Shown: positions 14,115 through 39,662 of the stretch, one piece after another | How the letters are laid out: each line of letters opens with the position of its first letter | How positions within the stretch are numbered: the stretch's first letter is position 1 | Assembly (NCBI RefSeq): GCF_052324685.1 | Contig: NC_135228.1 | Coordinates: 8,369,886-8,433,885 of the forward strand | Source of the DNA: Brachyhypopomus gauderio | Lineage: Eukaryota > Chordata > Actinopteri > Gymnotiformes > Hypopomidae | Reading direction: 5' to 3' | Length of the DNA: 64,000 nt | The notes under the pieces: generated by a model | Told to the model about the DNA's origin: nothing | The model's input: the letters and a program-made list of their open reading frames with translations, nothing else | Databases searched by the model: none | Translations under genes and position numbers: made by a program

Positions 14115-16470
14115 TTTAAAGATTTAAAACAGGTATAATCAGGTTTTAGAACAAGTTGACTGGGTGTTACACAGAAGTGTATTTGTGCTACAGACTCTGC
14201 CCACTGCACATAAACGAAAAAGGGCAGACAAATGGATTAAGGGAACACTTACAATAAGTGCTTACCAACATTAATAATACTTTTGTTAACAGCCTGTGGG
14301 GTACTACATCAATAATCATCCATATTAAAGTAGTTTGCACATTAGTTTAAAACCATCATCATGTCATGCAGTTATTAACATCAAATGCTATATTGATAAT
14401 GGTTATTTAATATTAAAATAACATACCAGTTGCAATTGCACTGGAGACAATTACACTACAGCTGTACACAGACAACAGTCATTAATTTGTTCACTCCTGT
14501 TCTCATATACTACATATGAAAAAAGTGATTCAATAAACAAATCTCACATGATAGTTTAATTAATAACACAGAAGCTGTGGTAGGTAGTAACTAGACATAT
14601 TTTACTCACTCATGTTTACTCCGGTAAAACTTTGATGGACTTCTAGAGCCATCCATACACACACAACCCCACACCCAATGTCCACAGCACATCTCATGCA
14701 TCTCATGTAACTTGGCCAGGATCACTTCAATTAAAAGTCCATTTACCGGTCTTTTTGGTGCCATGTTGCATATATAGCGGCTATAACATGTAAATGTACA
14801 GCCCCGCACTGACCATTCCTAATTGCCTCGTGATTGGAGCTCATACAAATCAGAATGATAACCACATTGGTAAGACGTACAATTAGAGCAAGTGAAAAAC
14901 TATTGTGTGTGTGTTGCTTAGAATCAACCTGTCAGCTGGCTTCAACCAGGAATCGACCAGTACAGGATATTGTTTCTTTTTAAAAAGTGGTTCTCATCCA
15001 ATCAACACAGTAATCATAGAGATAATAATATATTAAATTAAATCTTATGCCATATGCAAAACAGCAGCCAGCAGTAAATCACGTTTTTCCACCAGATTTT
15101 GTGGCAGGAGAACGTTAATAAAGTAAAACACTGCTGAAGCTACCAGCCATGCTGGTCGGCTCCAGTGCCTCCTTCTCACCTGTGTGACACGGGCCTTCAA
15201 TCAACAAAGCACAAACAACACACTAACTGAAGAGGGTTTTGGAGTCAGGCGTCATTTTGTCAAAAAATCCAAAGGAATTAAACTTTATTAACCGATCAAT
15301 GGAATACAACAGGTTACTAACAAGAACCTAGCTCCCACTCAAGCACACAAAACCCCCAGTGCATGCATGTACCTGTCTCCATAAGAGTCTCTTAATGGGC
15401 CAGATCACCTTGGGTGTCTACCTGCATGTCCATTTGGGAATTAGCTCAGGCTGTCAGTAGTAGTCCCTACATATGTAGTGTTCTGACATACGTAATCCAA
15501 AAAACAGAGTCCTGGCAAAGCATAGTGAGACATTGAAGTTGCATTGGTTATTTCTGGTAAGGTTTCTATGTTTCTTAATTTAGTTCTTAATTTTAATTTT
15601 ATAGTAAACAAGATGATACTTGAGATGATGATACACATTATGCAATAATAAAATGTTTAACATCTCTAAAAATTCATACTAAATTACTAAATACTTTAGT
15701 TTGCACGTGGCAGTTGGAGAAAAATGCATGTTGTACTCAAACATTCATTCTGTTTTAGCTCTCGTCTCAGCTTCCAAACTCATCCCATTACATGGGGAAG
15801 CTGTCTGGTGTTTGTTACATGGTCGTATTAGAAATCATCAAATCTGTCACCCTCTTCCTCTCAGCTGTGCGCTCACTACGACACATCAGTGTGTTCTTCA
15901 CCTGTTTCCGGAACTCCTTTGAGATTAAATAGTACACAAATGGGTCCAGACAGCTGTTGAGGCTGGATAGGCACAGAGTGAATATGTAGATGCTATAACT
16001 AATATCAGCGTTAAGTCCACTAGCTAGATGAGACCAAGACACTATTAACACAATGTTACTGGGAGTAAAACATACCAGGAACATCACCAGCACAGTAGTA
16101 ATGAGAATGATGGCCTTCCTTTTTTTCTCTCCATTTGTTCCTTTCTGACCTTCTGAGGACATGCTGGAACTCCTGAAGTAGAACAACATTTTCACAGATG
16201 TCACTGTACACACCACACTGGGAACTACATATCCCACAATGCCCATAGTCAAGAAGTAGCTAATTGGGTAGTGTAATTTGTTGGCATCATGGACATCACT
16301 GCAGGTACGTATTTTTGTTTCATTAAGATCAACATTAAGTGTGTGGTCATACAAATAGAGGGGCACAGTGATGAGCCAGACGGTGAACCACACACACACC
16401 GACACACACACTGCTACCCGGTTATTCCTCTTCTGCTGGGAAAATGGGTGCACTATTGCCCAATAGCGCT
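14115..16470. repeat. Inverted duplication, left outer block
   Basis: Matches 37808-39662 in reverse complement. The shared order is: PAR2-like coding sequence, its 3' flank (AGACAGCTTCCCCA near 15800 and 38495), a block ending in an LTR-like piece (about 15190 and 39150), and a block about 14115-14400 against 39420-39662 (CAGCCTGTGGGGTACTACAT and its near-identical mirror). Similarity stops at about 14115. Confidence 0.8.
15187..15471 (+). mobile_element. Possible LTR-like element
   Basis: Block starting TGTGACACGGGCCTTCAATC and ending GTAGTCCCTACA, with TG...CA ends. The right arm keeps only a mirrored remnant (about 39100-39165). No clear target duplication found. Confidence 0.35.
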
Positions 16471-16869
16471 GCACACTGATACATGCTATAAAAATGGCAG
16501 AGCAGTACATATTGCCATAGAAAAATACAACCAACATTTTACACAGAGGCTCCCCAAAGATCCAGTTATTGCCGTTGAAGTGATAGGCAATCTTCAGTGG
16601 CAGCCAGATGATGAAGAGCAGATCGGCCAGTGCCAGATTCACTAATAGGATGGATGCTGGGTGCTTCTTCTTTGTTCTGAAGATGAAGACCCAGATGGCC
16701 AAAGTGTTGGTGGGCAACCCCACAATGAAGATGATGATGTAAACGACTGGGAGGAAGACTGTGGTCAGGTTGCTGCACAGAATATTCATGGCAGTTGAAG
16801 ACACCTGAAACTCCTTTGTGGTGTTTCCCACTTCGGAAAAACCAGCTCTTCCCCACACTGTATCATTCT
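15815..16869 (-). CDS. f2rl1: Second PAR2-like GPCR, main coding exon
   Basis: Paralogue of the 1572-2680 gene with the same exon structure: acceptor ACTCACAACAG then two bases (AG) completing a phase-1 codon, then NDTVWGRAGFSEV. The Arg followed by AGFSEV is a candidate cleavage site and tethered ligand. TM1-TM7 are intact, with QRYWAIVHP, CFTPSN and DPFVYY. In extracellular loop 2 the PAR signature CHDV reads CSDV: the disulphide Cys is kept and the His is Ser. The C-tail is shorter than in the first copy. Exon 1 was not confirmed; a phase-compatible candidate lies near 22903. The gene lies in the left arm of the inverted duplication, its broken mirror copy at 37808-38479. The symbol is family level only. 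Confidence 0.9.
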
Positions 16870-17224
16870 CTGTTGTGAGTAAAAGATGGTTTTGGATCAA
16901 TATTATGGATTACAACCGTGCTGCTTTCTTCATTCTTAAAGTGAACCAAGATGTTTAGAATTTAGATTTAGTTTACATAGCTGTTCTGGTGAGTTCTGTA
17001 CTGACTATGGAGTCTTGCTTAAAGCTCTTAATCTTAACATCCAGACCATTTTAGCCACTTTTCATAGTTGATTCAGGCCTTATAGAAATATCTCGGAGTG
17101 TCTGAAGCTCAGCTGGTGGAAGCTGTTATTCTATAACTTCTAAACTGAAATAGTGTTCCAGAGAATATTATAATGCAAACTTTGTGCATTTTAATTAAAG
17201 AACAATAAAATGTTTAATTCATAC

Positions 17225-17420
17225 AGGTGAATGAGTGCAAAAAAAAAGAAGGAAGGGATCATGCCAGTCTCAGTGAAAATCGAGGATTTAATAAATAAAG
17301 TGCACCAATGCAAAACATATGACGTAATCTAAATAAGGATACAATAACCAGCAGACTACTGGTACAAAGACATGACATAGCCTATATAGACAAACAATCC
17401 TCAGGTGTTGTGCCTCACCT
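17225..17420 (-). mobile_element. Truncated LTR of family A
   Basis: Reverse-complement match to the 3' half of the 12987-13281 LTR (TGCAAAACATATGACGTAAT, ACTGGTACAAAGACATGACA). Left of the AT microsatellite. Confidence 0.6.
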
Positions 17421-17474
17421 GAACAAAACACACTCATGCACACACCCACACACATTAATGTGGAATCTTACACA

Positions 17475-17476
<2 letters not shown>

Positions 17477-17561
<85 letters not shown>
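17477..17561. repeat. (AT)n microsatellite
   Basis: Long uninterrupted AT dinucleotide run; the 'YIYIYI' ORFs here are artefacts. Confidence 0.95.
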
Positions 17562-17562
<1 letters not shown>

Positions 17563-17806
17563 ACTGCCCCCCCTCAAAATTTCTTTATGGGGGAGCCCCC
17601 CTGTGGGACTTTACATTAAACATAGGCAGTCATGTGCTTAAGTCACCATTGTGTTACATAAAGTGCTCCAGTCAAACAAACATAAAAACACAGCGGGATG
17701 AGCGGTTACTGGCTCAACTCCACCTCTGATTCAAATGACATTTACGACAAAAATGTCACGCAAACAAACACCACAAGACATGACCATGAAAGTAGGCTGG
17801 TTATTC

Positions 17807-18097
17807 TGTTACGGGAGAGGGAGTGCAAAAAACAAAGGATGCAATCACACCAGTCTTACAGAAAAGGGAGTATTTAATGAATAAAGTGCACCAATGCAAA
17901 ACCCGTGACATAATCCAAATTATTGATACAATAACCAACAGTCAACTGGTACAAAGACACAACATATATTGACAGACAAATGACCCTCAGGTGTTAGGTT
18001 CCCTAATGGGCCACACCCACCTGAGGGATGAACACAACAACTGACTGACAAGGGCAGCTGACAGGGGCGGCTAGCAGGGGGCCTCTGTAACATGACA
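17807..18097 (-). mobile_element. LTR of family A, reversed
   Basis: Plus-strand ends TGTTACGGGAG and AACATGACA. The interior is the reverse complement of the 12987-13281 family (ACTGGTACAAAGACA, CCCTCAGGTGTTAGG). Flanking five-mers (TATTC and GACAG) do not match, so no target duplication was confirmed. Confidence 0.65.
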
Positions 18098-18269
18098 GAC
18101 AGGCATTGGCCTGACTAAAAAGTATAATTTTAGTAAGCACTTTTTAATATTTTATGTGTGAAGTTGGCATGTCACCTAACCTGATTTTCATTATTATACT
18201 GTGTCAATGTGATTGTGGTTGTCCGAGATCCTATTTAGAAGTTCAGACCACACATTTAGACATGCGTCT

Positions 18270-18605
18270 GCTTTTCCATCCATCCATCCATCCATCCATT
18301 ATTTGTACCGCTTAATCCCATTAGACGGGGTCAGAGGGGGGCTGGAACCAATCCAAGCATCTCCAGGCAAATGCAGGGTACACCATGGGCAGGTCACACG
18401 CATTCATGCACTCACACCCACAGACAATTTAGAGTGATCAATCAACCTACCATGCATGTGGACTGTGGGAGGAGACCAGAGTACCTGGAGAAAACCCACA
18501 CAGGCAAAGGGAGAACATGCAACTCCACACAGAGCAGCCCAGACCGAGAATCAAACCCAGACTGCCTTGCTGTGAGGCTACACCACCATGCCACCCAAGT
18601 CCGAT
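18270..18605 (+). repeat. Dispersed teleost repeat with (TCCA)n head
   Basis: Begins with CCATCCATCCATCCATCCAT, then follows a widespread fish repeat tail: GGACTGTGGGAGGAGACCAG, GAGAAAACCCACACAGGCAA, GAACATGCAACTCCACACAG. The same tail occurs at 42890-43025. Probably a LINE-derived 3' tail; exact family not assigned. Confidence 0.65.
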
Positions 18606-18619
18606 TTTGAAAGTTTGAA

Positions 18620-19248
18620 AATAGCACTAAATACTTTACTGAAAAGGAGGAAAAAAAGCTGTCAATGTTGTTTCAGGTTGTGTGAATACTTAATCTCCCA
18701 ATAAAAATCATATGGCCCTGGCTCCTTTCTTACACATTTTTCACATATGCTGCTTGTCATGCACTTACTACTTGTACACATGTACATCTGATGTAACTTA
18801 CTTAGAATCATCATGAAAAACCTCATCATGTTAGAATCATCATGAAAAACCTGAAAATTAGTCTCTTCTTCCTGCATCTCTAGAGATTAAGCTTCACTAT
18901 AAGACTTCCAATATAAACTAGTGGTGTAAAATCTACAACATAAATGTAGTGTAAGTGTAATGCAGGGGAGTAAATATGCACAGTTAGCGCTTATCACACA
19001 TACACTAAACACTCATGGAGCGAGACGCAGATATGAGGTAGAATTAACATAGACAGAGCGATAATGATGACATCGACACAAAGGAAGTACATATATAAAC
19101 AAGACTGGACGTAGTACACATGCCCAGTGGGAGGAGACAGGGGCTGTATTGTGTACTCATAAGTAGATATGAGTAAAAAACGTAACATTTTGTAATATGC
19201 TTAAAAACAATTACTTGATATTTTCTGTGCTGTCGGTGCTGTTTGATT
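18620..19248. other. Intergenic, no feature recognised
   Basis: AT-rich sequence with a short local duplication (TTAGAATCATCATGAAAAACCT, twice near 18805-18850). No gene seen. Confidence 0.4.
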
Positions 19249-19250
19249 TA

Positions 19251-20865
19251 CACTACCGTTCAAAAAGTTTGGGGTCACTTAGAAATGTTCTTATTTTTGA
19301 AAGAAAAGCAGTTTTTTTTTTTCAATTTAGCTAACATTAAATGCATCAAAAATACACTTTATACATTATTAATGTGGTAAATGACTATTCTAGCTGTAAA
19401 CGTCTGGTTTTTAATGCAATATCTACATAGATGTATGGAGACCCATTTCCAACAACCATCACTCCAGTGTTCTAATGGTACATTGTGTTTGCTAACTGTG
19501 TAAGGAGGCTATTGGATATTTAGAAAATCCTTGAAAACCCTTGTGCAAGTAGGTTAGCACAGCTGAAAACAGTTTTGCTGATTAGAGAAGCTATAATACT
19601 GACCTTCTTTTAAGCTAGTTGAGAATCTGGAGCATTACAATTGTTGGTTCGATTAAACTCACAAAATGGCCAGAAAAAGACAACTTTCAATTGAAACTCG
19701 ACAGTCTATTCTTGTTCTGAGAAATGAAGGCTATTCCATGTGAGACATTGCCAAGAAACTGAAGATTTCCTACAATGGTGTGCACTACTCCCTTCAGAGG
19801 TGAGCACAGACAGGCTCTAACCAGAGTAAAAGGAGAAGTGGAAGGCCCCGCTGCACAACTGAGCAAGAAGACAAGTACATTAGAGTCTCAAGTTTGAGAA
19901 ATCGACACCTCACAGGTCCTCAACTGGCAGCTTCATTAAATAGTACCCGCAAAACGCCAGTGTTAACGTCAACAGTGAAGAGGTGACTCCGGGATGCTGG
20001 CCTTCAGGGCAGAGTGGCAAAGAAAAAGCCATATCTGAGACTGGCTAATAAAAGAAAAAGATTAATATGGGCAAAAGAACACAGACATTGGACAGAGGAA
20101 GATTGGGAAAAAAAGTGTTATGGACAGACGAATCAAAGTTTGAGGTGTTTGGATCACACAGATGAACATTTGTGAGACGCAGAACAACTGAAAAGATGCT
20201 GGATGAGTGCCTGACACCTTCTGTCAAACATGGTGGAGGTAATGTGATGGTCTGGGGTTGCTTTGGTGCTGGTAAAGTGGGAGATTTGTACAAGGTAAAA
20301 GGGATTTTGAATAAGGAAGGCTATCACTCCATTTTGCAACACCATGCCATACCCTGTGGACAGCGTTTGATTGGAGCCAATTTCATCCTGCAACAGGACA
20401 ATGACCCAAAGCACACCTCCAAATTATGCACAAACTATTTAGAGAAGAAGCAGGCAGCTGGTGTTTTATCGGTAATGGAGTGGCCAGTGCAGTCACCAGA
20501 TCTCAACCCCATTGAGCTGTTGTGGGAGCAGCTTGACCGTATGGTACAAAGAAAGTGCCCATCAACCCAATCAAACTTGTGGGAGCGGCTTCTGAAAGCA
20601 TGGGGTGAAATTTCTCCAGATTACCTCAGCCAATTAACAGCTAGAATGCCAAAGGTCTGCAATGCTGTAATTGCTGCTAAGGGAGCATTCTTTGACGAAA
20701 GCAAAGTTTAAAGTAGAAAATTATTTCAAAAAAAAAAAAAAAAACATTATTTCTACCTTGTCAATGTCTGGACTATATTTCTATTCATTTTGCAACTCAT
20801 TTCATAAATAAAAGTATGAGATTTCAGGGAAAACACAAAATGGTCTAAACTTTTGAACGGTAGTG
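19251..20865 (+). mobile_element. Tc1-like transposon, near full length, inactive
   Basis: Ends CACTACCGTTCAAAAAGTTT and its mirror near 20840-20865 are terminal inverted repeats, flanked by TA on both sides (19249-19250 and 20866-20867), as expected for Tc1/mariner. Confidence 0.9.
19664..20711 (+). pseudogene. Tc1-like transposase, disrupted
   Basis: Starts MARKRQLSIETRQSILVLRN with a paired-like helix-turn-helix region, followed by in-frame stops near 19741, 19801 and 19984, a frameshift in a poly-A run near 20108, and another stop near 20161. The last 179 codons (20172-20711) are open. The catalytic triad positions are recognisable: TDES (D), QQDNDPKH (D) and NPIE (E). The cut-and-paste transposase cannot be made as a whole. 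Confidence 0.9.
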
Positions 20866-21234
20866 TATATATTATAAATCATCAGAAAATCATTACCATT
20901 AACGTAGATTTAAAAAGCAGTAATCATATGTAACCGTATAAACAGAAACAAGAATGGTAATTTTACTGGATCAGTGGTAATATTGAATCATTAGATCAAT
21001 AGAATTATGCACATTTTGTACATTAGCTTATTGATGTGTGCAACCACTTATATAGGAGAGGCAGGAAGCAGATGTAGCAGCAGGAAAGAAATCACTGGTG
21101 AGTGGTCTTAAAAGCATATAGAAAAGACTTCTGGGTTAACAGTTATTACAGAAAGACAAGCCAACACAGGATCCTTAAGTGTGGAAGAAACAAGGCAAAT
21201 TGCTCCTTCAACCTTCCTATTTCAACCACTCCGC

Positions 21235-22560
21235 AGGCTAGCCCACAGCACTTGGAAGGGAAGGCTTTCCCATTTGAGGTGGAGGACCAGCTGGCTGGCT
21301 TCCAGTCGGACTTTTCTGACCTGCTGGTCGGAAAGAGAGACCTCTCCTCAGCTCACCAGCACACCCAGAGACACCCCAGCTCTGGTCTGCGCCTCCAGCA
21401 TGGCTTCCTCCTCCACCTCTAGCAGAAAGCGATGGAGGACGGAGGTGATCTCTCTGGAGGTTCCAGTCCTGGTCCTGTGAGGGTTCACCTCATACTTGGA
21501 GGAGTTGTAGCACTCAGAGGAGGACTGTTTGCAACTAGGGGAGTCCATCCACCAAAACCTGAGGAGGCATACCCCTGGACCAAGATCTTTGAGGATCCGT
21601 ACCCCTGGGGCAGTGCCTCCCTCCCCATGCCCTGATAGGTGTGTGAGGCCTCAGGCTTAGAGGTAGAGGAAAAGGAGGATCCAACCAGCTGTCCAGCTGC
21701 CAGTGCGTGCTGTCCTATAGACAGTGCACATCCCCCAGAGACTCCTGTGGACAGTACATGCCTTGCAGTTTGTAGTGCACGACCACCAGCAAGTGCATGA
21801 CCACCAACTGCCCCTGAGGATGGTGCACAGGGATCCAGCAAGTGGCTACTCCAGCAGGTCTGTGACCCACATGCACTCTGGGGTTCTGGCATGGCATCCT
21901 GGAAACTATGTTTGTACCCATCTCTGTCCCTGTGTTAACTCCTGTTTTTGTGTCTACCTCTGTTTCCCTTTGTATCCTTGCCCCTACCCATATTATGCCT
22001 GTTCCTGTGTTCATCCTGTCTCTGTCTACCCCTGGTAGGTTGGTCCATGGGTGCGCTCTCCCTAGGGGAGGCTGCTCCTGGCAGTGCCCTGGTTTCTGGG
22101 GCTGGACTGCACATTCCGCCCCTTACTCTGTTGTGAATATGTATACGTTCATATGTTCATCGCTTGTCTTTGTATTGTATCGAGTCCCAGTGAAAACACA
22201 TTGCATGTTATAAGAGCTCTCGTCTCTGTATCCTGCTTTGCCTCACTTGTCACAACCAGGTTTTGTTGTTTTTATATTAATTATGAAGGATCACTAGGCA
22301 GTTATTATAAGTCAGTGATGGGATTCATTGAAGTAAAAAAAAAAAAAAAAAAAAACAGACAGAGACATTCCAGAACTGAACAACCCATACAGACACAGCT
22401 GATGCTGTAAATGTCCATGTGGTTACAGTGGTTTTTGCTCTAAGACCATAGATTTGATGTATTTTAAGAAAATGTTACAAAATGTACAAATATAATTTAT
22501 TAATTTACTACATGTAGTCTAGAACCACAAAAATGTTTAGCGTGTTTTAAGTTTCTTGAA
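21235..22560. mobile_element. Unidentified insertion in the left arm, LTR-like end
   Basis: GC-richer block present only in this arm. ORFs in several frames are low complexity. The right side (about 22140-22250) resembles an LTR end (CTCACTTGTCACA). An A-rich run lies at 22338-22358. The family was not recognised. Confidence 0.4.
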
Positions 22561-22902
22561 ACTATCAAAGGATAAGATTTTTTTAAAGGACTACAGATGT
22601 GTACTTGTGAATTATATTTAATAATTTATAATACCATTAAAACATGTAGATTAAGCATAACAACAAAATAACAAAACCATTGTTTACAAAACCATACTGG
22701 AAACTTTCCAGGTTCATGATTCCAGTCATAAAAAAGATTATCTTCTTGAGCATCTATCTATGTATCTATTTAGACAAAATATGATATGGGTTCAGAGGTT
22801 GTTTGCTTTAATCGGACAACAATCATTACTGTTTAAAATAGCATAAAAAATGTCTATACCTTTCTATAATGTCTAGCACTTCAATAGCTCAGCTAAAACT
22901 TA

Positions 22903-22943
22903 CCTTTTAATGCATTCTTACTCATGTTTAAATCCATCTTCAT
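22903..22943 (-). other. Candidate short 5' exon (mirror of 33371-33411)
   Basis: On the minus strand ATGAAGATGGATTTAAACAT starts 13 codons (MKMDLNMSKNALK) plus one base, then a GTAAGTTTTAG donor. Both arms of the inverted duplication keep the ATG, a 13-codon frame and the donor. It ends in phase 1, the phase used by the PAR exon 2 at 16869 on the same strand. It lacks the hydrophobic core of a signal peptide, so linking it to the PAR gene is only a suggestion. Confidence 0.35.
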
Positions 22944-23177
22944 CCAAATCCTGATTTTTGTAGGCTGTACTGATCAACTGGAGTGAATTTAATTTCGGAT
23001 TCTGGCTGCGTGAGTTTGTGCTTCGCTGTATCTTCTCCCTGTTTTCAAGGAGATCTTAACAGCAAGCATAGATGTGCTAGAGTGTGTTGACATCCAACCA
23101 AGTGAAGATAGCCCAGATTTGTACTATAGGAGGAAGTGATGGGAGTGACCTGAGTCACATGGATAGTGTGTCTTACC

Positions 23178-23646: not shown

Positions 23647-23654
23647 GACGTTCA

Positions 23655-24155: not shown

Positions 24156-24520
24156 TTCAACAAACCTAATTACTGTCACGGTAGGTCAGCTTGGACGCCA
24201 CCAGAGGGCGCACACACACCCCCTCTATCACACGCACGCCCACAACCACACGGAGCACACCCTCTCAGTTCCGGACACTCCTACCATCCCAATCACCAGA
24301 GTACTGACACCTGTCACATAATCAGGTGTGGGGTGTATTGATTCCCACAGGAATCCCGCAGCTGTCCAGTGCTGCGCATTCAGCCTGCACCCTTGCCTTG
24401 CACCGTGGAAGAGACCTGCTCTGTTGTCAAGCTTTTGGAACTCTGTTTTTTATTCTTTGTTATCTCTTTGTTGGCATTTCCGTTCGTGTTTATTCTGCCT
24501 TTGTGGCCTGAGTATTTAAG

Positions 24521-25420
24521 TTGACCGTTATGGAGAATAAAACCAGTCACCCTCAGCCTCTGCCTCCTGCTGTTTCTGTCCCAGCATCACAGAATGCGCA
24601 GCCTGTAGCAGCAGGAGCAGAGGAGCTGTCTCCGGTTGAGATCCTGGCATTGCAAGGTAGGACAATAGGAAAACAACAACAGGAGATAGAAGAGATGAGA
24701 AACCTCATGCATCTTATGTCTAGCTGTCTGCAGAGCCTTACTTCCCAGGCGAAGGATTCTTCATCACCCGAACTAGAAGAGGAGAAGGCCCACATTGCGC
24801 CACCGGAGCCCTATGGTGGAGACCCCGATAAATGTGAGGGATTCCTGTTGCAGTGTGGACTCTACTTCACATATCGCTCGAGGTTGAGCGATAACGCGAT
24901 GGTCGCATACGTGATTTCACGCCTGACCAGCAAGGCTTTGAACTGGGGGGCAGCCCTGATGAAAAGCGAGTCACCCCTCCTGTCTGCTTTGTTGCAGAGT
25001 TGCGAGAGGTGTTCCATCATCCTCGGCAGGGCAGTACCTGTGGACAGAGCCTTCTGAAACTGCGGCAAGGGATGCGCCCTGCTGAGGAGTATGCCTTGGA
25101 CTTTTGCACTTTGGCGGCCAGCACCGGCTGGAATGACGCCGCCTTAGTGGACATTTTTGTAGCCAGCTTGCGACACGAGTTGCGGGCCGGGTTAGCTTGC
25201 AGACAGGAGGGGCAGAGCTTCAACCAGGTAGTCCGGTTGGCCGTTACCTATGGCTGCCTCATTCAGGAGAGAGGCGTTCGCATGCCGCAAAGCCCAGCTC
25301 CCAGGAACCCCTCACAGGCAAGTCCTAAGTATAGCCAGACTGTGGAGCCCATGCAGATTGGGGAGACGGCAGCAGCCAAGAAGCCCGCTCACCCGAGCGG
25401 TGGCAGAGCTCAGGTGAGTA
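24521..25420 (+). pseudogene. Gypsy gag-like ORF, frameshifted
   Basis: Begins MTVMENKTSHPQPLP, with a coiled-coil-like stretch (GRTIGKQQQEIEEMRN), then a capsid-like region in a second frame (MRPAEEYALDF, ASTGWNDAALVDIF). A frame change occurs near 25000-25050. No clear zinc knuckle was seen. Confidence 0.75.
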
Positions 25421-25439
25421 ACTCGACTGGAAAATTGCT

Positions 25440-27246: not shown

Positions 27247-27965
27247 TAGCACTTCCAGGGTTGCCAACAGCGTGGGTGCTTTTTTGTTTGTTCGTTGCCG
27301 TAAACCCGAGCCGAACTCTCTACCATACGTTAGTTTGCTACAAGAAATGACCAGTACCCACTTCTACGGCAGACAGACCCTACTAAACCTGGAAACTCGG
27401 AGTAAACACGGAGTAAACTATCGGTCAATCTGCGAGCAAGGCCATTAGCATCAGGCCTGCTAAGGTCCACGGTGTTTCTGAGGCCTGCTGTACGGAGGAG
27501 AGCTCCTTGCAAGCGGTGCGTGAGGAGCCGGAAGTGTGGAAAAAGAGCCGGAGTCCGTGCTTTGCTAATGGCTAACTCCAGCCTGCCGTGCAATCTATTC
27601 TCCTCGCGAACGTCTGCTCCCTGGAAAATAAACTGGACTACCTACGGATTCAGCGAACAACCCAGCACGAGTTCAGAGACTGCTGTGTGTTCGTTTTCAC
27701 AGCGACGTAGCTAACAAGCTCCATTCCGGACTCCGCCATTCAGATGGACGGCCTGAACTACTTTCGTGCCGACCGCGACGCAGAGCTGTCCGGTAAGACC
27801 CGCGGAGGGGAGCTGTGTGTCTACATCAACACAGAATGGTGTAGAAATGCTACGCTGGTTTCCAGCTACTGTTCTCTGCTGGTGGAGTTTGCTGTCTTTA
27901 GAGCCAGACCGTTTTATCTGCCGAAGGAACTGAACACTGTTTACATCGTAGCGGTGTATGTAGCA

Positions 27966-28215
27966 CAGGGGTGCTCATTACGTTGAACGCGATCGACCGG
28001 TCGATCGCGAAGGAATGTGCGTAGATCGCGTCACATAAAATAGTAGTAGATGAATCGCACATCTGCACTGACGGTTGTAGCCAATCTGCAATCCACTCAA
28101 CAAATTACGTTCGCCCCCCCCGCTCAACAAATTACGTTCGCCGCCACCCCGGTAGATCTTTCTGACTTGGTCATCTTATAAGTAGCTCGCAAGCTGAAAA
28201 CTGTGGGCACCCCTG
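27966..28215. mobile_element. Non-autonomous hAT-type element, 250 bp
   Basis: Termini CAGGGGTGCTCA and TGGGCACCCCTG are inverted repeats. They are flanked by an 8-bp duplication ATGTAGCA (27958-27965 and 28216-28223). It interrupts the LINE endonuclease region. Confidence 0.88.
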
Positions 28216-28999
28216 ATGTAGCACCTAATGCAAAGGCCAACGCTGCTCTGAGTGAGCTGTATAGCACTATCAGCACACTCCAAACTCACACCCTGATGGA
28301 CTGTTTATTGTTGCTGGAGACTTCAATCACAGTAACCTGAAGGCTCTGCTGCCCAACTTCCACCAGCACGTGGACTTTCCAACCCAGGGGCTAACATGCT
28401 GGATCTGGTCTACACAAATATCCCTGGAGCCTACAGAGCATAGCCCCGCCCCCACTATGGCTACTCTGACCACATCTCTGTTATGCTCATCCCAGCATAC
28501 AGACAGCTCATCAGACGCACCAAATCAGAACTGAAGCAAGTGACAACCTGGCCTCCAGGAGCCACCTCTGCTCTTCAGGACTGTTTTGAGCGCACTGACT
28601 GGGACATGTTCAGAGAAGCTGCTACATCTGATGCCTCCATCAATCTGGAGGAGTACACAGAGTCAGAGACTGGCTACATCAGCAAGTGCATTGATGATGT
28701 TACTGTCTCCAAAACCATCACAACATTCCCCAAGCAGAAGCCGTGGATGACTCCAGAGGTGCGTAGGCTGCTGAGAACCAGGGACAAGGCCTTCAAGTCA
28801 GGGGACATGGTAGGCCTCAGAACAGCTAGAGCCAAGCTGGGGTATCAGAGAGGCAAAGCGCACTTACGCAAAGAAAATCCACGCCCACTTCCAGGACACT
28901 GCTGACACTCGGCGCATGTGGCAGGGCATCCAGGCCATCAAGAACTACAAGCCAACTCCACCTGCCTGTAACATTGATGCCTCCCTTCCAGATGCGCTG

Positions 29000-29240
29000 C
29001 ATCATTTTAATTTTTTTTGCTACTATTAGAGATTGTCTGCGGTTGGTAGCGGTCTTCCCACTTAGCAATCGACACTCGCTTAGCAACCCACCCCCAAGCT
29101 CAACAACTTTCGTTCGTCGCCCCCCCGACCCCGCGCAACAACTTTCGTTTGATTGAACTGTATCAATCTGGTAGCCCTCCGCAATAATTGGTATCTAAGA
29201 AGTAGCTCCCAGTTTCAAAAAGGTTGGTGACCCCTGCTGT
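29000..29240. mobile_element. Related hAT fragment
   Basis: Shares internal phrases with 27966-28215 (CAACAACTTTCGTT, TAAGAAGTAGCTC) and ends GGTTGGTGACCCCTG. The left end is not clear. It replaces part of the LINE reverse transcriptase region. Confidence 0.6.
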
Positions 29241-29269
29241 ACTGCAAAGTACAGCTCAAATCACATTGT

Positions 29270-29888
29270 CAAGTTCACTGATGACACAACCATAGTTGGC
29301 CTCATCAGCAAGAACGATGAGTCAGCATACAGGGGGGAGGTTCAGTGGCTAACAGACTGGTGCAGGACCAACAACCTATCCCTAAATGTGGATAAAACCA
29401 AAGAGATGGTTGTTGACTTCAGAAGAACACCAGGTGACCACCACCCGCTGAACATCAACGGCTCTGCTGTGGAGATTGTGAAGAACACCAAGTTCCTCGG
29501 TGTCCACATAGCAGAGAACCTCACCTGGTCCCTCAACACCAGCTCCATAACAAAGAAAGCCCAGCAGCGCCTCTACTTCCTGCGGAGACTGAGGAAAGCA
29601 CACCTTCCACCTCCCATCCTCACCATGTTCTACAGAGGGACTGTAGAGAACATCCTGAGCACCTGCATTACCGTCTGGTTCAGGAGCTGCAACATCTCGG
29701 AGCGCAAGACCCTACAGCGGATAGTGAGGACAGCTGTGAAGATCATTGGAGTCTCTCTCCCCTCCATCAGTGACATCTACACCACATGCTGCATCCGAAA
29801 ATCCACCAACATTGTGGAAGACCCATCCCACCCATCACACAGTCTCTTCACTCTGATGCCATCCGGCAAAAGATACAGGAGCATCTGA
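29270..29888 (+). pseudogene. LINE reverse transcriptase, C-terminal part
   Basis: Open for about 200 codons: [45 protein letters not shown], then TLMPSGKRYRSI. These are the thumb and C-terminal motifs of fish LINE reverse transcriptases. The YADD-type catalytic core lies in the missing part; only TDDTT remains at the left. Confidence 0.85.
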
Positions 29889-30357
29889 GCCTCCACTTCC
29901 AGACTCTTTAACAGCTTCATCCACCAGGCAGTCAGGCTCCTCAACTCTCAAAGACGGAACTGACACACACCAACACTGATCTGACCCCACACATGCACAA
30001 AAAGACTGCACTGAACCCCCCACAGAACCACTGTGTTCATGTTCCATATGACACAGTATATCACTCATCTCTGACACCACTCAGACCACATTGCACTGTA
30101 CCAGCACTTTACACCATCATGTCTGTCAATTGTCTCTGGCCTGTTGTATTTATTGTATTTATTGTAGTGTTTTGTTGTGAGATTGCCCCATACTGCACAT
30201 TTTGCACATTGTACTGTTACCCTGTCGCACTTTAAGTTGTCTGTTGTACTGTTGATTTGTGTTGCACCACGGTTCCGGAGGAACAAAATTTCATAACACT
30301 GTGTACCTGTACTCGGATGTAATGACAATAAAAATCCACTTGACTTGACTTGACTTG

Positions 30358-31170
30358 AGACAGCAGAGGCGCTGTTCCGCGAGGTGTTTCGCCTGTATAG
30401 ACTGCCGGAGGACATTGTATCCGATCAAGGACCACAATTCACCTCCTGGGTTTGGAGGGAGTTCCTCGCCAAGCTGAACATCACGGTCAGTCTGACATCC
30501 ATGATGTAGAACGCGCAAACCAAGAGCTGGGACGATTCCTGCACGCTTATTGCAGCGAGTACCCCGACACCTGGAGTTCGCTACTCACCTGGGCTGAGTA
30601 TGTTCAGAACTCCTTGGTTCAGTCCAGCACTGGAGTAACACCTTTTGAATGTGTTCTAGGGAGACAGCCGGCTCTATATCCCTGGAACGCTGCCACATCT
30701 GCCCAACCAATAGTGGAAGAATGGTGCAAGAGAAGTGAACGCTTGTGGGCAGTTACTCACCGTAAGCTGCAGGCGGCTGTGAGATGCTTTAAAGCGAAAG
30801 AGGATCGTCAGAAGAGTGAAGCCCCTGAGTACAGGGTAGGGGATAAGGTATGTGTATCGACCAGTGATTGCAGTCTCGGACCGAGAGGTAAGCTGGCGGA
30901 CCGCTACGCGGGTCTCTACATCATCGCTAGACATATCAACCCTGTTACCTACCAGCTACGCCTGCCGGGGGACAGAAGAGTATCCAGTGCGTTCCATGTG
31001 TCAGCCCTGAAGCCTTTCCAGGAGGGTCCTCTGAGTGCTGAGGCAAGACCGGGACCGCCTTCTCCATTACAGCTGTTGGACGGACCTGCTTACCATGTTC
31101 GGAGGTTACTGAACTCTCAGCGTAGGGGAGGAGCACTCCAATACCTGGTTGACTGGTATTGGAATTTTAA
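30358..31170 (+). pseudogene. Gypsy integrase C-terminal half, continued after the LINE
   Basis: Resumes with [17 protein letters not shown] then [12 protein letters not shown], the second integrase Asp region, with a frameshift near 30470-30500. The remainder is open: EYVQNSLVQSSTGVTPFECV, a GPR-type region near 30880, and a chromodomain start (YHVRRLLNSQRRGGALQYLV) cut off after LVDWYW. No 3' LTR follows. Confidence 0.85.
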
Positions 31171-31179
31171 ATGAACATG

Positions 31180-31945: not shown

Positions 31946-31950
31946 CTTAT

Positions 31951-32459: not shown

Positions 32460-33160
32460 GTCAGTGGTTCATACAAAGCTGGGGCCCCACATCATTTCAT
32501 TTCCATTTGAAACAGAGACAATGTAATGAAGAAAGGTCTTAATTTTTTTACTGAATAGATGCAGAAAGAATCCTCAATTATTTAGACCAAACCAGAGATA
32601 GTAAGGGGGGCCACTAGACATTTTGACCTTCTTTCTCTAACCAGCTCACTCATATCTACAAGAGAACAAAATTTCAGATATTCTTACATTTAAACCCAGA
32701 TCACTACATAAAGTACTACATAGGCCAAAGACTCTACCATACACAAACGACAAAAACAAACAAGTGTAACACATAACGACAATGAGATGAAGGTCAGGTG
32801 ATCCGAATGTTGCACCCTTAAATGAAACCCACATATATTATCGATTTTGTGCAACTTTATTTGACAAAACCCACGGAAATGTATGTAAGGATGTGTCTAA
32901 AATAAATGTAAGGGGCTGTGTGCATTTGGCATTTTCCTTTGGGGTATATCTAAGCACTACACGATTTACAGAATACACACTAAGATACATACCGAAATGA
33001 CCAAACATAGACAAACATACAGCCATGCCACATAGAGCAGTCAGGGGCTGTACCATGACTGTTGGTGACTATATGTAATGATACAGTACATGTAGTTATT
33101 TTTCCAAATAATTTACATATATCTGTAACATCTGCAATGTGACTATGCAATTATGTTACA
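32460..33160. other. Intergenic
   Basis: No coding or repeat identity recognised. Confidence 0.4.
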
Positions 33161-33164
33161 CCAT

Positions 33165-34060
33165 TCATGTGACTTAGGTTACTCCCATCACTTCCTGCTA
33201 TCTTCACTGGGTTGTATGTCAACACACTCTAGCACGTCTGTGCTTGTAGCCTGTTCAGATCTCTTTGAAACCAGAGTTAAGACGAAGTGGAGACTCATAC
33301 AGTCAGAATCAGAAAGTAAATCCACTCCAGATGATCAGTACCAACTACATCAGAAATCTGGATTTAGATGAAGATGGATTTAAACAAGACTAATAATTCA
33401 TTTAATGGTAAGTTTTAGCTTTGCTATGGAAAGTTATAGACATTAAGGAAAGGTATAGAAATTAAAAATGCTATTATAGATGCAGATGCTAAAGAATAAT
33501 TTAAAAAAAATTTTTTATCATGGACCTGGAAAGTTTCCAGTATGGTTTTGTAATGAACAACTTTGTAATTAACAACTGTTGACTGATAAATCATCAAACA
33601 AACACTTGAACTACATGTTGGTTAAATGGTTATACCAGTCACATACACCAGTCTTATGCTAAATATACATATTTTGTTTGTCTTATTGCAAATCATTAAA
33701 TATAATTCATAAATACACATCTGTAGCCTTAAAAAAAGTAACATCTTATTCCTTGATGCAGAATGGTTGAAATAGGCAGGTTGGAGCATCAATTCACCTT
33801 CTTTCTTCCACACTTATGCACCCTGTGTTGACTCATCTTTCTGGGATAATTGATAACTCAGAAGTCTTCCCTAAGTGTTTTTAATAACACCACTCACAAA
33901 TGATTTATCTCCTCACTGTGGAAGCTGATACAATATCTACTTCCTGCCTCTGTTACATTAGTGGTTGCACACACCAATAAGCTAATGTGTAAAATGAGCA
34001 TAATTTTATTAATCTAATGACTTAAATGTGCAGTTTTTCATGATGAAGTAAGTTACAAGA
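33165..34060. repeat. Inverted duplication, right inner block
   Basis: Reverse-complement partner of 20950-23170 without the 1.3 kb insert. Conserved islands include ATGTCAACACACTCTAGCAC (33219), TGGAAAGTTTCCAGTATGGT (33529) and GTTGCACACACCAATAAGCT (33964). Confidence 0.8.
33371..33411 (+). other. Candidate short 5' exon (mirror of 22903-22943)
   Basis: ATGAAGATGGATTTAAACAA opens MKMDLNKTNNSFN plus one base, then a GTAAGTTTTAG donor. It is conserved with the left arm despite divergence of the flanks. A possible N-glycosylation site (NKT) appears only here. No downstream partner exon is assured; the mirrored PAR2 exon at 37808 has lost its 5' half. Confidence 0.35.
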
Positions 34061-34128
34061 TCGACACTACTTATTACAAGTAGTAAGTGCATGAAAAACA
34101 GCATATGTGAGGTAAGAAAGGTATTTAA

Positions 34129-34264
34129 TGCTATTTTCAAATTTATTTAGTGCTATTTTCAAACTTTCAGAAATCAGACTCATGACTGTGTGTGTCTGTG
34201 TGGAGTAGGTTTGAGAAAAATGTATGTATGTGTGTTTGTGGAGTGGGTATGAGAGATGTATGTA

Positions 34265-34327
<63 letters not shown>

Positions 34328-34510
34328 AGTGGGTATGAGAGAGATGAAGCTGTGTGTCAGTGTGATGTGTGTGAGGGAGATGTATGTGTGTGCGCGTCTG
34401 TTTGGAGTGCGTATGAGAGAGATGAATTTGTGTGTGTGTGTGTGTGTGAGGGAGATGTATGTATGCGTGTGTCTGTGTGGAGTGGGTATGAGAGAGATGA
34501 ATGTGTGTGT
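34129..34510. repeat. (TG)n microsatellite and degenerate TG-rich repeat
   Basis: A pure TG run at 34268-34326, followed by about 60-80-base degenerate repeats of a GGAGTGGGTATGAGAGAGATG phrase. ORFs here are artefacts. Confidence 0.9.
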
Positions 34511-35830
34511 GCTTGTCATTTGTTTGGTGTTTTGGTTATTCCTGAGTGTATGGTTTAGACTCAGTGTATTTTCTCTATTCAGTGCCTCATAAGCGTCTCC
34601 CCAGTCTCAGTTGGTTGTGTGTCCCTTTGTTCCAGCCCCAATAATATGAGTCCTGTATGTCCAATATGCCTCTGCTCTCTCCACACTTGGGTCAGCCACC
34701 CACTTCTCTCGAGTAATGTTACACCAGGATCTGTGTATAAGCTCAATATTCTAAACATCTTGGTTCTTCTTATGAAAGATCAACAGGTTCGTAATTCATA
34801 ATATTGTTGCAAAACCTTCTTATACTCTTGACAGAAGAATATAAAATAGATATGAGAGTTGCTCTCCTTGGACTGGAACAAACCTCACAACAGTCTCTTT
34901 CTACGGCTCTGGACCTGCAGTTTTAGACCTGCAGTTCTAGACGTGCTGTAGTTTTAGACATGCGCCACCTAGCGGCTCGGAATGTAGCTAACGACAGCCA
35001 ACTGCAGTTCTAGACCAGCAGTTCCAATGCATGCCGTAGGCTCGGGGGCTTGTATATTGTAATAATCCATTGTATAAAGAGTTTATTTGTTAAATATGCC
35101 CATTGATTCTCAATTGTTTTAGCCAAATCTCTAACATTTGACAAGTTTTAAACGATAATGTACACCATATTTTGTATTTAAATAGAAGTAGTACGCCTCA
35201 TTTTCCCTGTTCTTTTAGGGAGTTTTGATTAATTTTGTCATTTACACACACAGCTTGTCTCCTGAAGAGATTTTATTTTTAATTAAACTACTGGATTACT
35301 GGCATAGGCTATTTTGTATTAAAAATCAGCAAAAATTGCATAATGTCCGGATGCTTTCAGTGAGTAAGCATACGTTTCCAGAATGTTAGGAGTGATTTAT
35401 TTTACTCGTATACGTTCATAGGCCCTTTTCACAACAAAACGGAAATACGTCACCGCCGGGTAAAACAAGTTCCGGTACTCGCAGAAGATAGTTGTTGTCA
35501 ATTCACCTCAGCATGGAGCGTGTGTTTACTTCATCCCTGTCGTCGCTGCCGAGACTGAATTTTAAATACGTTTCCAGTATCGTTGGAGAACATTCAACAA
35601 CGAACTGTTCCAAGTTAAATAGAGGCTACAAATTGTTTGTAGAATAATTTATTCACTTATACCAGGGTAAGCTAACACCAGCTAGCACTAGCTAGGTAAC
35701 TATTATTTAAGGTATAGCTGGTTCCATTAGTCATCCTACGGAGTGGTAAAACAGTCTATATTATTATGATATATATTATAATATTACAAATGATACTGAC
35801 AGCTTTAGTTAACAATATCTAGCTAGGTTA

Positions 35831-36166
35831 AGCTGGGCGTACACTGTGCGATTTTTGGCCCATTTTCAGCCGATTTTTCACTCGTGCGACTATTTTTGCG
35901 ATCGGGCTGAGTTTCGGCTCAATCGCGTGTCGTGCATCGTATAGTTTACACGGGTAAACAAGGAGCGATTCACACCTCACGACCAATTCCCGATCAGAAA
36001 TCGCAGCGTCGCAAGAATATCAAACATGTTTGAAATTCAAATCGCTCCTCGTGAGAGTATCGCACTGTTGAAGCAGCTCCACGAGCCGACTCTCCCTGCG
36101 ATTTAGTCGTAGTTTGAGCTGGAGCTGAGTACACGATTTAAAATATCGTACAGTGTACGCCCAGCT
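35831..36166. mobile_element. MITE inside the fold-back element
   Basis: Inverted ends AGCTGGGCGTACACTGTGCG and TACAGTGTACGCCCAGCT, flanked by TTA on both sides (35828-35830 and 36167-36169), as in Harbinger-type MITEs. A partial, inverted piece of the same MITE lies at 36618-36666 in the right arm. Confidence 0.75.
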
Positions 36167-36459
36167 TTAGCAAGCCAAGGGACGTCAGCTATTGATTGTT
36201 TGGTTTACATCAGTATCAATAAAGTTCATGACACACACCAAGTTATTACGTGTTATTGTTTATTCAGTGTCCAATATAGTCGACAGCAAAGTGATGGTCA
36301 GAGCTGGATGCTATCGAGCAGAGCTGGATGCTAGCGGATCACAGCTAGTTTCAGAGCCGTTTCAGTGGAACAGTTGCTGTCCGCATTTGAAAGAGCAAAT
36401 TCTCGACTAGTAGATGTTCGTGGTGTACTGCCAGCCGAGAGCTTGCTCTTTTCTAGCTA

Positions 36460-36612
36460 GATGCTATCGGATCACGGCTAGAAGCTAGCGAACCGGGGCT
36501 AGAAGCTATCGGATCGGGGCTAGAAGCTATCGGATCACGGCTAGAAGCTATCGGATCACGGCTAGAAGCTATCGGATCACGGCTAGAAGCTATCGGATCA
36601 CGGCTAGAAGCT
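36460..36612. repeat. 21-bp minisatellite, about seven copies
   Basis: Unit GGCTAGAAGCTATCGGATCAC repeated head to tail in the loop of the fold-back element. Each unit is 7 codons, giving an artefactual repeat ORF on the minus strand. Confidence 0.9.
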
Positions 36613-37109
36613 ACCAAACCGAAACTCAGCCCGATCGCAAAAATAGTCAAATCGCACAGTGTACGCCCAGCTTAACCTAGCTAGATATTGTTAACTAAAG
36701 CTGTCAGTATCATTTGTAATATTATAATATATATCATAATAATATAGACTGTTTTACCACTCCGTAGGATGACTAATGGAACCAGCTATACCTTAAATAA
36801 TAGTTACCTAGCTAGTGCTAGCTGGTGTTAGCTTACCCTGGTATAAGTGAATAAATTATTCTACAAACAATTTGTAGCCTCTATTTAACTTGGAACCGTT
36901 CGTTGTTGAATGTTCTCCAACGATACTGGAAACGTATTTAAAATTCAGTCTCGGCAGCGACGACAGGGATGAAGTAAACACACGCTCCATGCTGAGGTGA
37001 ATTGACAACAACTATCTTCTGCGAGTACCGGAACTTGTTTTACCCGGCGGTGACGTATTTCCGTTTTGTTGTGAAAAGGGCCTATTGGCATGCAACTAGC
37101 AAATATTAT

Positions 37110-37340
37110 GTGATACTTGGGGTTTTTCGCTCACACGCCACACATCCAATTTCTCACGCCGAAAAAAAAATCTAGTTTATTTACCTCTGATCCATATCTA
37201 TGATTCAATGAGTTACCAGTTCGCTCTGGCGCAAACACTGGCGATCGATCGATCGCAATATAATACTTAATTTTTGTCCATTTTACGTTCGCCATCAAAG
37301 TAGCTACTAGCCATAATAGGTAGCCAGAACTAACGAACCA
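37110..37340. repeat. Dispersed repeat shared with 50530-50740
   Basis: Phrases CTCACGCC, AAAAAAATCTAGTTTATTTACCTC and ATGATTCAATGAGTTACCAG recur in the same order at 50590-50690. Family not recognised. Confidence 0.55.
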
Positions 37341-37659
37341 AGACACACTAACGCTTGCCAGATTCATCCTTCATGACATAAACATTACGATAACCCAAAA
37401 ATGACCTTCAGACATTATCATATATCTATCATATATTATTGTTGCTTATAAATATCATTATTCCATCTGCTCCCGCGACATACTAAAACACTATCTGGAT
37501 ATTACGTTACATACATCTAAAACTACGGCACGTCTAGAACTGCAGGTCTAAAACTGCGGTTGGCTCTCCGGGTGTGCAATTGGATGATGTAGGGAGATCT
37601 ATCGAGATCTGTTACTTCTCACTAGCCTGGGCAGCGGTCCGCTCGCATTACTGTTAGTA

Positions 37660-37807
37660 TATCAATATATAGTAACGCACCGCTTTTAATGACCAGTAAC
37701 GTCAACGGCGTTGTAACGACAGGAAAATTAATTATATTATCCCGTTACTAACAAAATGACGCCGTTACCTAACGCCGTTATTTTTAACGGCGTTATTCGC
37801 AACACTG
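37660..37807. mobile_element. hAT-like terminal region abutting the PAR2 pseudogene
   Basis: Repeated TAACGGCGTTA-type palindromes ending GCAACACTG, a typical hAT right end. The next base (37808) is already PAR2 exon 2 sequence. The matching left end was not found. Confidence 0.55.
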
Positions 37808-38479
37808 CTATTGGGTAATAGTGCACCCATTTTCCCAGCAGAAGAGGAATAACCGGGCCGCAGTGTGTGTGTCGTTGTGTGTGTGTCTCTGTGCCCCTCT
37901 ATCTGTATGACCAGACTGTTAATGTTGTGCTTAACGAAACAAATGTAGTCACCTGGGATGATCTCCATTATGTCAATCAATCACACTTCCTTATTAGTTA
38001 CTTCTTGACTATGGGCATTGTGGGATATGTAGTTCCCTGTGTGGTGTGTACAGTGGCATATGTGAGGATTTTCCTCTATTTCAGGCGTTCCAGAATGTCC
38101 TCAGAAGGACAAGACGGAACACAAGGCCAAAATAAAAGGAAGGCCATCATTCTCATGACTACTGTGCTGGTGATGTTCCTGGTATGTTTTACTCCCAGTA
38201 ACATCATGTCAATAGTGTCTTGCTCTCGTCTAGCTAGTGGACTTAACGCTGACGTTGGTTATGGCTTCTACACTATTACTCTATGCCTATCCAGCCTCAA
38301 CAGCTGTCTGGACCCATTTGTGTACTATTTAATTAATCTCAAAGGAGTTCCATAAACAGGTGAAGAACACACTGATGTGTCGTAGTGAGCACACAGCTGA
38401 GAGGAAGAGGGTGAAACATTTCATGTTATCTCAGAGGAAGAGGGTAGCAGATTTAAAGTTGTCTAACACAACCAAGTAA
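37808..38479 (+). pseudogene. PAR2-like receptor pseudogene, 5'-truncated and frameshifted
   Basis: Starts abruptly within the QRYWAIVHP motif (here YWVIVHPF), so the N-terminus and TM1-TM3 are missing. A roughly 15-base deletion shortens TM4. The loop-2 signature TCHDV reads TWDDL, losing the disulphide Cys. TM5-TM7 are open to DPFVYY, then a 4-base duplication (TTAATTAA near 38330) shifts the frame to a stop at about 38355. The C-tail (KEF, QVKNTLMCRS) continues in another frame to TAA at 38479. It is the mirror of the intact copy at 15815-16869. Confidence 0.92.
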
Positions 38480-39662
38480 CAAACACCAGACAGCTTCCCC
38501 ACAGAAAGCAACACTTGCTATGGGCCACTTCATACAGTAATTGAATATTTAGAGATGTACAATTGGATTATTATGACTGCCATCTCCAACTAGTTTACAA
38601 TAAAATTTAAATTAAGGAGCACAGAAATCTTAATAGCAGTAGATGTTACATAACCAGTAGATACAGATACAGTTTAACAGACATTGTATATTAAACATTT
38701 TAGTGATGTACATGAAGTTGCAGAGAAACAAGATGTTTTGGCCAAAGGTCCTTCATCAATTGTACATTTTCTTAAATTTGCTTAAATTGTACATTTTCTT
38801 CTTGTATTATGATATGAGTTGTTACAATTCAGTGTAAAAAACTCGCTAACACAGGTAACTCATTTAGTTAACAAAATTTGCTAGTTCAAAACTGCTACAC
38901 CACATAGTACCGAGAGGATCTGTGCGGTCTGGTATATAGTCTTTTATGTAGTGGCGATGTCACATCAGTGATGTCATGGGTTGTTGAATCCTCTTTGGGT
39001 TATGGAAAGCAGTGATTGTTTTCCTCTATTTCAATGCAACTTTACCAACCTCTGTCTCTCCATACTTTGCAAGGATTTTTTGGATTATATAAGTCAGTAG
39101 CTAGTGTTAGTGTTGTGTTGTGTTGTTAGTGCTTTGTTGATTGAAGGCACGTGTCACACTGGTGAGAGGGAGGCCCATCAAAGTTTGCCAGAGTGAACAT
39201 GACATGTGTGAGTAAATGTGTCTGGTTTCTACCTACCACAGCTTTTGTGTTATCTAAACTATCATGTGACATTGTTTATTGAATTACATTTTTATAATGA
39301 GTATATGAACAAAGGAATGAACAAATTAATGAATGTAACTGTCATTTTAATATTAGCTAACCATTATTATATAGCCTTTGATGTTAACAACTGCATAACG
39401 TGATGGTCAGAATTGACTCATTTCTGATGATGGTCAGAAACTAATGTGCAAACTACTTTAATATGGATGATTATTGATGTAGTAGCCCACAGGCTGTTAA
39501 CAAAAGCATTATTAGTGTTGGTAAGCACTTATCGTAAGTGTTCCCTTAATCCATTTGTCTGCCCTTTTTCTTTTCTGTGGCTGCAGCACAAATACACTTC
39601 TGTGTAATAACCAGTCAACTTGTTCTAAAGCCTGATTATACCTGTTTTAAATCCTTTAAAAC
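37808..39662. repeat. Inverted duplication, right outer block
   Basis: Reverse-complement partner of 14115-16470, with the PAR2 pseudogene at its left end and the best conserved non-coding island at 39420-39662. Similarity ends at about 39662 (CTGTTTTAAATCCTTTAAAAC). Confidence 0.8.

Follow-up and report, generated by a model that had tools for sequence, protein, structure and literature searches.

A 64,000-nucleotide stretch of the Brachyhypopomus gauderio assembly GCF_052324685.1 (contig NC_135228.1, positions 8,369,886 to 8,433,885; hereafter the window, in whose own coordinates all positions are given) carries a cluster of genes resembling those for protease-activated receptors (PARs). 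Its present content appears to be two intact PAR2-like main exons—copies A and B—and one pseudogene, copy C. Copies B and C sit head to head in two mirrored arms, with their 5' sides towards the spacer and their 3' sides outward. Copy A, which the first-pass annotation of this DNA had not recorded, lies in the same, direct orientation as copy B, with which it shares a tract of unusually few silent changes. Taken together, these features make it very probable, in our judgment, that a PAR2-like gene was duplicated once in inverted, head-to-head fashion, that copy C then decayed, and that a segment covering transmembrane helices 1 to 4 (TM1-TM4) was converted with copy A.

The PAR2-like copies

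Pfam 7tm_1 was found in both A and B, and for each the human PAR2 chains rank above PAR1 and PAR4 among PDB matches, the best chain for copy B being human PAR2 at an E value of 2e-100. Helix labels (TM1-TM7) were assigned by eye on the human PAR2 alignment, not computed. At its N-terminus copy A reads DR/GFVGEE, an arginine (before the slash) followed by a putative tethered ligand. The corresponding place in copy B offers a candidate arginine in GR/AGFSEV; we know of no tethered ligand that matches AGFSEV, although no search for one was made. A CHD motif in extracellular loop 2 is a hallmark of PAR2-type receptors. Copy A has TCHDV there, as in human PAR2, and copy B has TCSDV (CSD for CHD); the translations of copy C and of a PAR1-like neighbour read TWDDL and TCHDA, respectively.

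Genes of the PAR2 type generally have two exons, the first with a signal peptide, and a phase-1 intron. For copy A, a predicted exon 1 ranks second in an exon scan (Table 1); the top candidate, 7831-7705, overlaps a DDE transposase frame. A 26-bp tandem repeat (3.9 copies, 2695-2795) ends about 14 bp before the main-exon acceptor of copy A, and an open frame crosses part of it. For copy B the scan yielded no convincing signal-peptide exon. A candidate upstream exon and its counterpart in the other arm are predicted from the arm alignment instead; the pair sits in the innermost block of the arms, and its donor phase fits the main exon, with no signal peptide seen. The (TG)n exon candidates in arm 2 proved to be simple repeats.

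Copy C retains its exon start from 34835. It is without some 290 bp around TM1-TM3, or some 400 bp if a 16-bp remnant at 34881-34896, a weak match at an E value of 0.59, is distrusted, and two indels shift its frame: 17 bp are deleted in TM4 and 4 bp are inserted at TM7. At least three lesions thus break it. With these lesions in C and an open frame in B, the first-pass description of an intact PAR2-like gene in one arm and a broken one in the other holds. The DNA that occupies the gap in copy C contains 437-bp inverted arms (35418-35854/37085-36649) that are 99.8% identical, with one mismatch, and between them a 21-bp tandem repeat (36456-36613, 7.5 copies); we read it as a probable mobile-element complex. 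The portion 35418-37085 resembles a very young foldback-type element or one with long terminal inverted repeats.

Mirrored arms around a mobile-element spacer

When 12.0-24.5 kb was searched against 31.0-42.5 kb (BLAST, word 7, E<=0.001), 16 inverted matches emerged. The best ordered chain takes in 13 of them, spans 14114/39661 to 23169/33158, and has match centres at 25.9-28.2 kb. Three matches fall off the chain: 17246-17407 and 17807-18034, which pair with 40.1-40.3 kb, represent a repeat with further copies in the window, and 18611-18640 overlaps a chained match. Self-BLASTN of the whole window gave, on the minus strand, the block pairs 14114-14638/39661-39175 (75.5% identity, with gaps), 15830-16467/38431-37807 (85.5%), 20988-21235/34020-33757 (78.0%), and 22834-23169/33478-33158 (76.5%), the last being the innermost. 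Within the window, no third copy of the non-coding arm blocks appears among the matches listed in this self-search (the best 60 of 64 on the minus strand and the best 60 of 68 on the plus strand).

The controls stayed close to empty. In direct orientation the same two segments share two matches, both from the dispersed repeat, and an arm reversed but left uncomplemented gives none. Another four segments, each roughly 11.5 kb long and overlapping one another, produced 0, 0, 0, and 2 inverted and 0, 0, 1, and 5 direct matches, with no chain longer than 2, and 50 shuffles of 10-mer blocks averaged 0.02 matches. The mirrored inverted structure is confirmed as real, far beyond chance. The first-pass annotation had described mirrored block pairs with a near-common centre at about 27-28 kb, and had favoured one inverted duplication over scattered repeats; its pairs recur in the minus-strand search, its centre falls within the range of the chained match centres, and self-comparison on both strands contains one anti-diagonal chain, against repeat matches only in direct orientation. 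Its word "large" needs qualifying: the inverted arms are there, but a good part of their extent occurs in one arm only and is partly mobile DNA.

It is these private stretches, present in each arm, that make the arms look large, and what was duplicated was probably a single gene and its flanks, a few kb in all, later stretched by insertions of mobile DNA. For example, 2166 private bp in arm 1 include a Tc1-type element with terminal repeats, presumably of the Tc1/mariner family. The spacer holds decayed Gypsy-type pieces and a LINE-type (long interspersed nuclear element) piece, of which the part at 28444-28905 has no Pfam match and was assigned by appearance. The claim that a Gypsy element and a LINE filled the spacer later stands as far as the pieces themselves are concerned; their later arrival is plausible but unproven, as no convincing pair of long terminal repeats was found by which to date the spacer Gypsy element.

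One dispersed repeat has five copies in both orientations (12986-13281, 17222-17409, 17807-18102, 23654-23904, and 39994-40291), several of them near arm ends, and another dispersed element has two (23178-23649 and 62190-62917). The copy at 23178 starts at most 10 bp from the inner end of arm 1 and may mask the original breakpoint.

Table 1. Features of the PAR2-like locus and its surroundings (window coordinates)
Feature	Position	Strand	Basis or remark
Copy A, PAR2-like main coding exon, intact	1572..2680	-	Best PDB match human PAR2, E 4.8e-124; acceptor CTCCAG
Candidate exon 1 of copy A, 22 codons, hydrophobic signal-peptide-like stretch	4334..4400	-	Prediction; phase-1 donor AAG/GTAAGA
Relic of a further PAR2-like copy, TM1 only	10444..10531	+	At 10467-10531, DNA match of 85% with A (67 columns) and with B (66 columns); protein E 0.01
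Arm 1, holds intact copy B	14114..23169	-	13 ordered inverted matches to 39661-33158
528-bp stretch of arm 1, no arm 2 counterpart	14639..15166		Arm comparison
Copy B, PAR2-like main coding exon, uninterrupted frame	15815..16869	-	Pfam 7tm_1, E 2.8e-53; acceptor CAACAG 16875-16870
Copy B tract in common with copy A, TM1-TM4	16355..16804	-	Limits approximate; copy A codons 41-190 = 2618-2169
Tc1/mariner-type transposon (presumed family), arm 1	19249..20867	+	Pfam DDE_3; terminal inverted repeats 19249-19270/20867-20847
1328-bp stretch of arm 1, no arm 2 counterpart	21236..22563		Arm comparison; insertion in arm 1 or loss from arm 2
Candidate upstream exon of copy B, 13 codons and one base	22904..22943	-	Prediction; arm alignment; GTAAGT donor, phase 1
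Decayed Gypsy-type retrotransposon pieces, spacer	24512..31174	+	Pfam RVT_1 and SH3_Tf2-1 above cut-off; gag-like DUF4939 and Retrotrans_gag below
LINE-type piece within the Gypsy stretch	28444..29888	+	At 29199-29888, ALKBH8_N above and RVT_1 below cut-off
Arm 2, holds broken copy C	33158..39661	+	Same ordered chain of 13 matches
Arm 2 counterpart of candidate copy B upstream exon, open	33368..33407	+	Prediction; arm alignment; GTAAGT donor
Copy C, PAR2-like pseudogene	34835..38518	+	Alignments; tblastn protein matches in three frames, reaching about 38518
DNA in the copy C gap, about 2.9 kb	34897..37806		Outer limits approximate; inverted arms and tandem repeat
Neighbouring PAR1-like receptor exon, open frame	40812..42074	-	Best PDB chain human PAR1, E 6.2e-69

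How far the arms have diverged bears on whether they are a product of evolution or of assembly. In nine blocks that are for the most part non-coding, the two arms disagree at 202 of 1439 ungapped sites (about 14%; Kimura two-parameter distance, K2P, 0.156). These sites come from nine of the 12 chained blocks besides the main coding one (15483-15546, 15586-15615, and 22684-22720 were left out), with gaps ignored and a few coding bases included (15815-15846 and 16865-16869); as BLAST preferentially finds similar blocks, the true divergence of the arms may exceed 14%. The blocks most alike between the arms are short, at 93% over 56 bp and 97% over 37 bp, and long near-identity is absent. Such divergence lies far above the usual allelic difference and, together with the large private stretches, is incompatible with duplicated haplotypes. 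An artefact in which two haplotypes of one locus were joined in opposite orientation would find some encouragement in the near-perfect 437-bp hairpin, the kind of place that is prone to assembly errors, but it must accommodate differences at 202 of 1439 sites, long private stretches in each arm, lesions of copy C that are absent from B, and a window with no N at all; we regard it as highly improbable.

Downstream of the tract shared with A, the coding sequences of B and C tell much the same story as the arms: 58 of 419 sites differ (K2P 0.154), with synonymous divergence (dS) of 0.185 and a ratio of nonsynonymous to synonymous divergence (dN/dS) of 0.71, a ratio that may be near the expectation for a pair of which one copy is free and the other constrained. 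Private changes there number 22 in B and 18 in C, so this part of B evolves about as fast as the pseudogene. The neutral rate in fish is about 4e-9 per site and year, and at this rate the duplication would date to roughly 20 million years ago, as an order of magnitude only.

The TM1-TM4 tract shared with copy A

Silent sites carry the case for gene conversion between A and B. Within codons 41-190, only 13 of 127 same-residue codons differ silently, and none of 2000 permutations was as extreme; counted over codons 49-198, the figures are 16 of 130 inside against 39 of 99 outside (p 4e-6). The scan covered 229 same-residue codons, with Met, Trp, and codons before 22 omitted and codons taken as independent. 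Between A and B, dS is 0.192 over codons 41-190 against 0.92 over codons 199-365 (p 6e-8), the higher value being near saturation and falling to 0.77 when restricted to the 145 codons that C retains. Codons 22-40, at the N-terminus, are too diverged for dS, and silent counts were rounded in the distance tests. Even inside the tract dS is unequal, at 0.351 for codons 41-98 against 0.097 for codons 99-190 (p 0.03), which may reflect more than one exchange.

The limits of this likeness are as telling as its depth. No A-B likeness was found beyond the exon when 1-9 kb was compared with both arms, a result that also led us to reject the idea that A and B belong to a long tandem repeat of recent origin. 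A matches the arms only within the exon, whereas next to that exon the intron of B finds its match in C. Since the A-B likeness ends at the exon and the B intron edge matches C, the tract is bounded on both sides, and a simple crossover would be insufficient to produce it.

Strong purifying selection on TM1-TM4, with no conversion, would be an alternative source of the A-B likeness. By eye, this part of A does look well conserved in the alignment with human PAR2; GC content at third codon positions is higher in the tract (0.65 vs 0.59 in A, 0.66 vs 0.49 in B); and the resemblance of C there, clear when all sites are counted, is not clear when silent sites are taken by themselves (1/26). However, the A-B excess sits precisely at silent sites of same-residue codons, where 16/130 meets 39/99, and copy C, a pseudogene unlikely to stay constrained, keeps a tract end at 4/116 from A when the arms differ by 14%. 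Selection alone is, in our view, an improbable account. These sequence patterns lend good support to partial gene conversion between A and B: the A-B pair has a tract defined at silent sites, and for C the tract is one of all-site likeness only.

The timing of conversion relative to the duplication is a separate question, and here the evidence is divided. In the tract end that C retains, A and C differ at 4 of 116 sites, against 120 of 395 downstream (p 3e-11). The same 4/116 is lower than the divergence of the arms (p 5e-4) and than that of B and C in the downstream coding sequence (p 1e-3), and this greater closeness indicates an exchange after the duplication. Private changes in the tract, counted over 133 columns, number 5 in B, 4 in C, and 0 in A, which hints at A as the donor.

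Several comparisons weigh against so late an exchange. On silent sites, no significant difference separates downstream B-C divergence from A-B divergence in codons 41-98 (p 0.12) or 99-190 (p 0.35), or from the A-C count in the tract (1/26; p 0.12). Moreover, B and C themselves differ at 9 of 116 tract sites, a proportion not significantly below that of the arms (p 0.066) or of the B-C downstream sequence (p 0.083), and the two may share one older conversion followed by later changes. Four of the five private B changes fall in the last 23 of the 133 columns (p 0.003, for a cut chosen post hoc), and these differing right ends of the B and C tracts lean weakly towards separate conversion events over one alone. 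The order of conversion relative to duplication is thus only moderately supported.

The history that we favour would run as follows. A PAR2-like (F2RL1-type) gene with its flanks would have been duplicated once, inverted and head to head, to give B on the minus and C on the plus strand. Copy C would then have decayed, as mobile DNA replaced the TM1-TM3 region and two frame-shifting changes accrued, with the frame of B staying open. By gene conversion, a process suggested by the pattern itself, the TM1-TM4 segment would have been exchanged with the neighbouring copy A, making B, as well as the tract end that C retains, similar to A inside the tract and not on either side. Less certainly, at least one exchange may have followed the inverted duplication, and an older one preceded it, with A as donor.

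A duplication followed by a separate inversion would yield the same picture, and this bears on the first of these steps. The two-step version—a direct tandem duplication, then inversion of one copy—draws on the direct orientation of A and B and on the alternating strands of the cluster (A minus, a relic plus, B minus, C plus, a PAR1-like gene minus), which suggest that inversions may be frequent. Nothing in the window requires the additional inversion, however, and repeats hide where the arms end; we consider this version somewhat unlikely.

What copy B has become is a more speculative matter. One prospect, itself doubtful, is that mosaic exchange made it a receptor of new specificity, with the TM1-TM4 core homogenised with A by repeated conversion. 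If so, the N-terminus of B, its loop 2 (CHD to CSD), TM5-TM7, and the tail would be free to drift, and the triggering protease and the ligand could change on a conserved core.

Related clusters and neighbouring features

Inverted segmental duplications accompanied by pseudogenisation and ectopic gene conversion are known in gene families, for instance in the primate major histocompatibility complex. The present locus has in common with them its mirrored arms, the decay of one copy, and patchy exchange between paralogues. Unlike such duplications in general, its patchwork lies between A and the B/C pair, and its arms are without long near-identity.

Zebrafish offers the closest comparison. There, par2a (f2rl1.1) and par2b (f2rl1.2) lie on chromosome 21, with candidate duplicates resembling Par1 within the same 0.2 Mb (PMC3408399), and the zebrafish cluster is thus like this locus in placing PAR2-like genes beside Par1-resembling ones. 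A count of 27 PAR-like zebrafish genes, apparently arisen by tandem duplication and mostly of two exons, appears in PMC2793433; an earlier claim of many PAR duplications (reference 18 of PMC3408399) was later attributed to database versions (PMC3408399). The GFVGEE of copy A is close to GFTGEE, the tethered peptide given for zebrafish PAR2-21D, a peptide reported not to activate thrombocytes (PMC2793433); the AGFSEV of copy B differs. A study of egg activation indicates that par2a matters in zebrafish eggs (PMC12173237), and by analogy a use for the PAR2 copies here is plausible.

No head-to-head pair with a dead copy and a conversion tract was found in the accessible portions of the zebrafish accounts PMC3408399 and PMC2793433. 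A literature search on F2RL1 gene conversion, poor in subscription papers, led to a paper that mentions the process only in a cited title concerning another gene, which is no proof of absence. We regard the locus as a new example of PAR cluster expansion, ordinary in kind and unusually clear in detail: it records how a receptor cluster may change by inverted duplication, the death of a copy, a load of mobile elements, and piecewise conversion with a neighbour. There is also a practical consequence, as whole-exon PAR2 trees of such fish would mix two histories, with TM1-TM4 pulling B to A and the remainder placing B with C.

The relic of a further PAR2-like copy, also absent from the first-pass annotation, is oriented opposite to A and B. 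A second inverted pair, between A and this relic at 10.4 kb, was considered and rejected: the minus strand has only the TM1 match, and the plus strand two matches of 46 and 23 bp. Three bp after the relic, in the region 10444-10635, begins a 101-bp stretch with 80% likeness to 42090-41988, where the intron of the PAR1-like gene probably meets its exon. The two pieces may be what remains of two PAR genes fused together, or the likeness may come from a repeat common to both places.

No Rfam family reached its gathering score in the window. Nine further open reading frames were passed through Pfam, seven outside the features discussed here and two in the spacer; four matched domains of mobile-element type, some below cut-off, and five are unmatched. 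At 55624-56541, on the minus strand, a proline-rich open frame of 305 residues ending KVEDLRRRWETFD, with no Pfam match, is probably the last exon of another gene.

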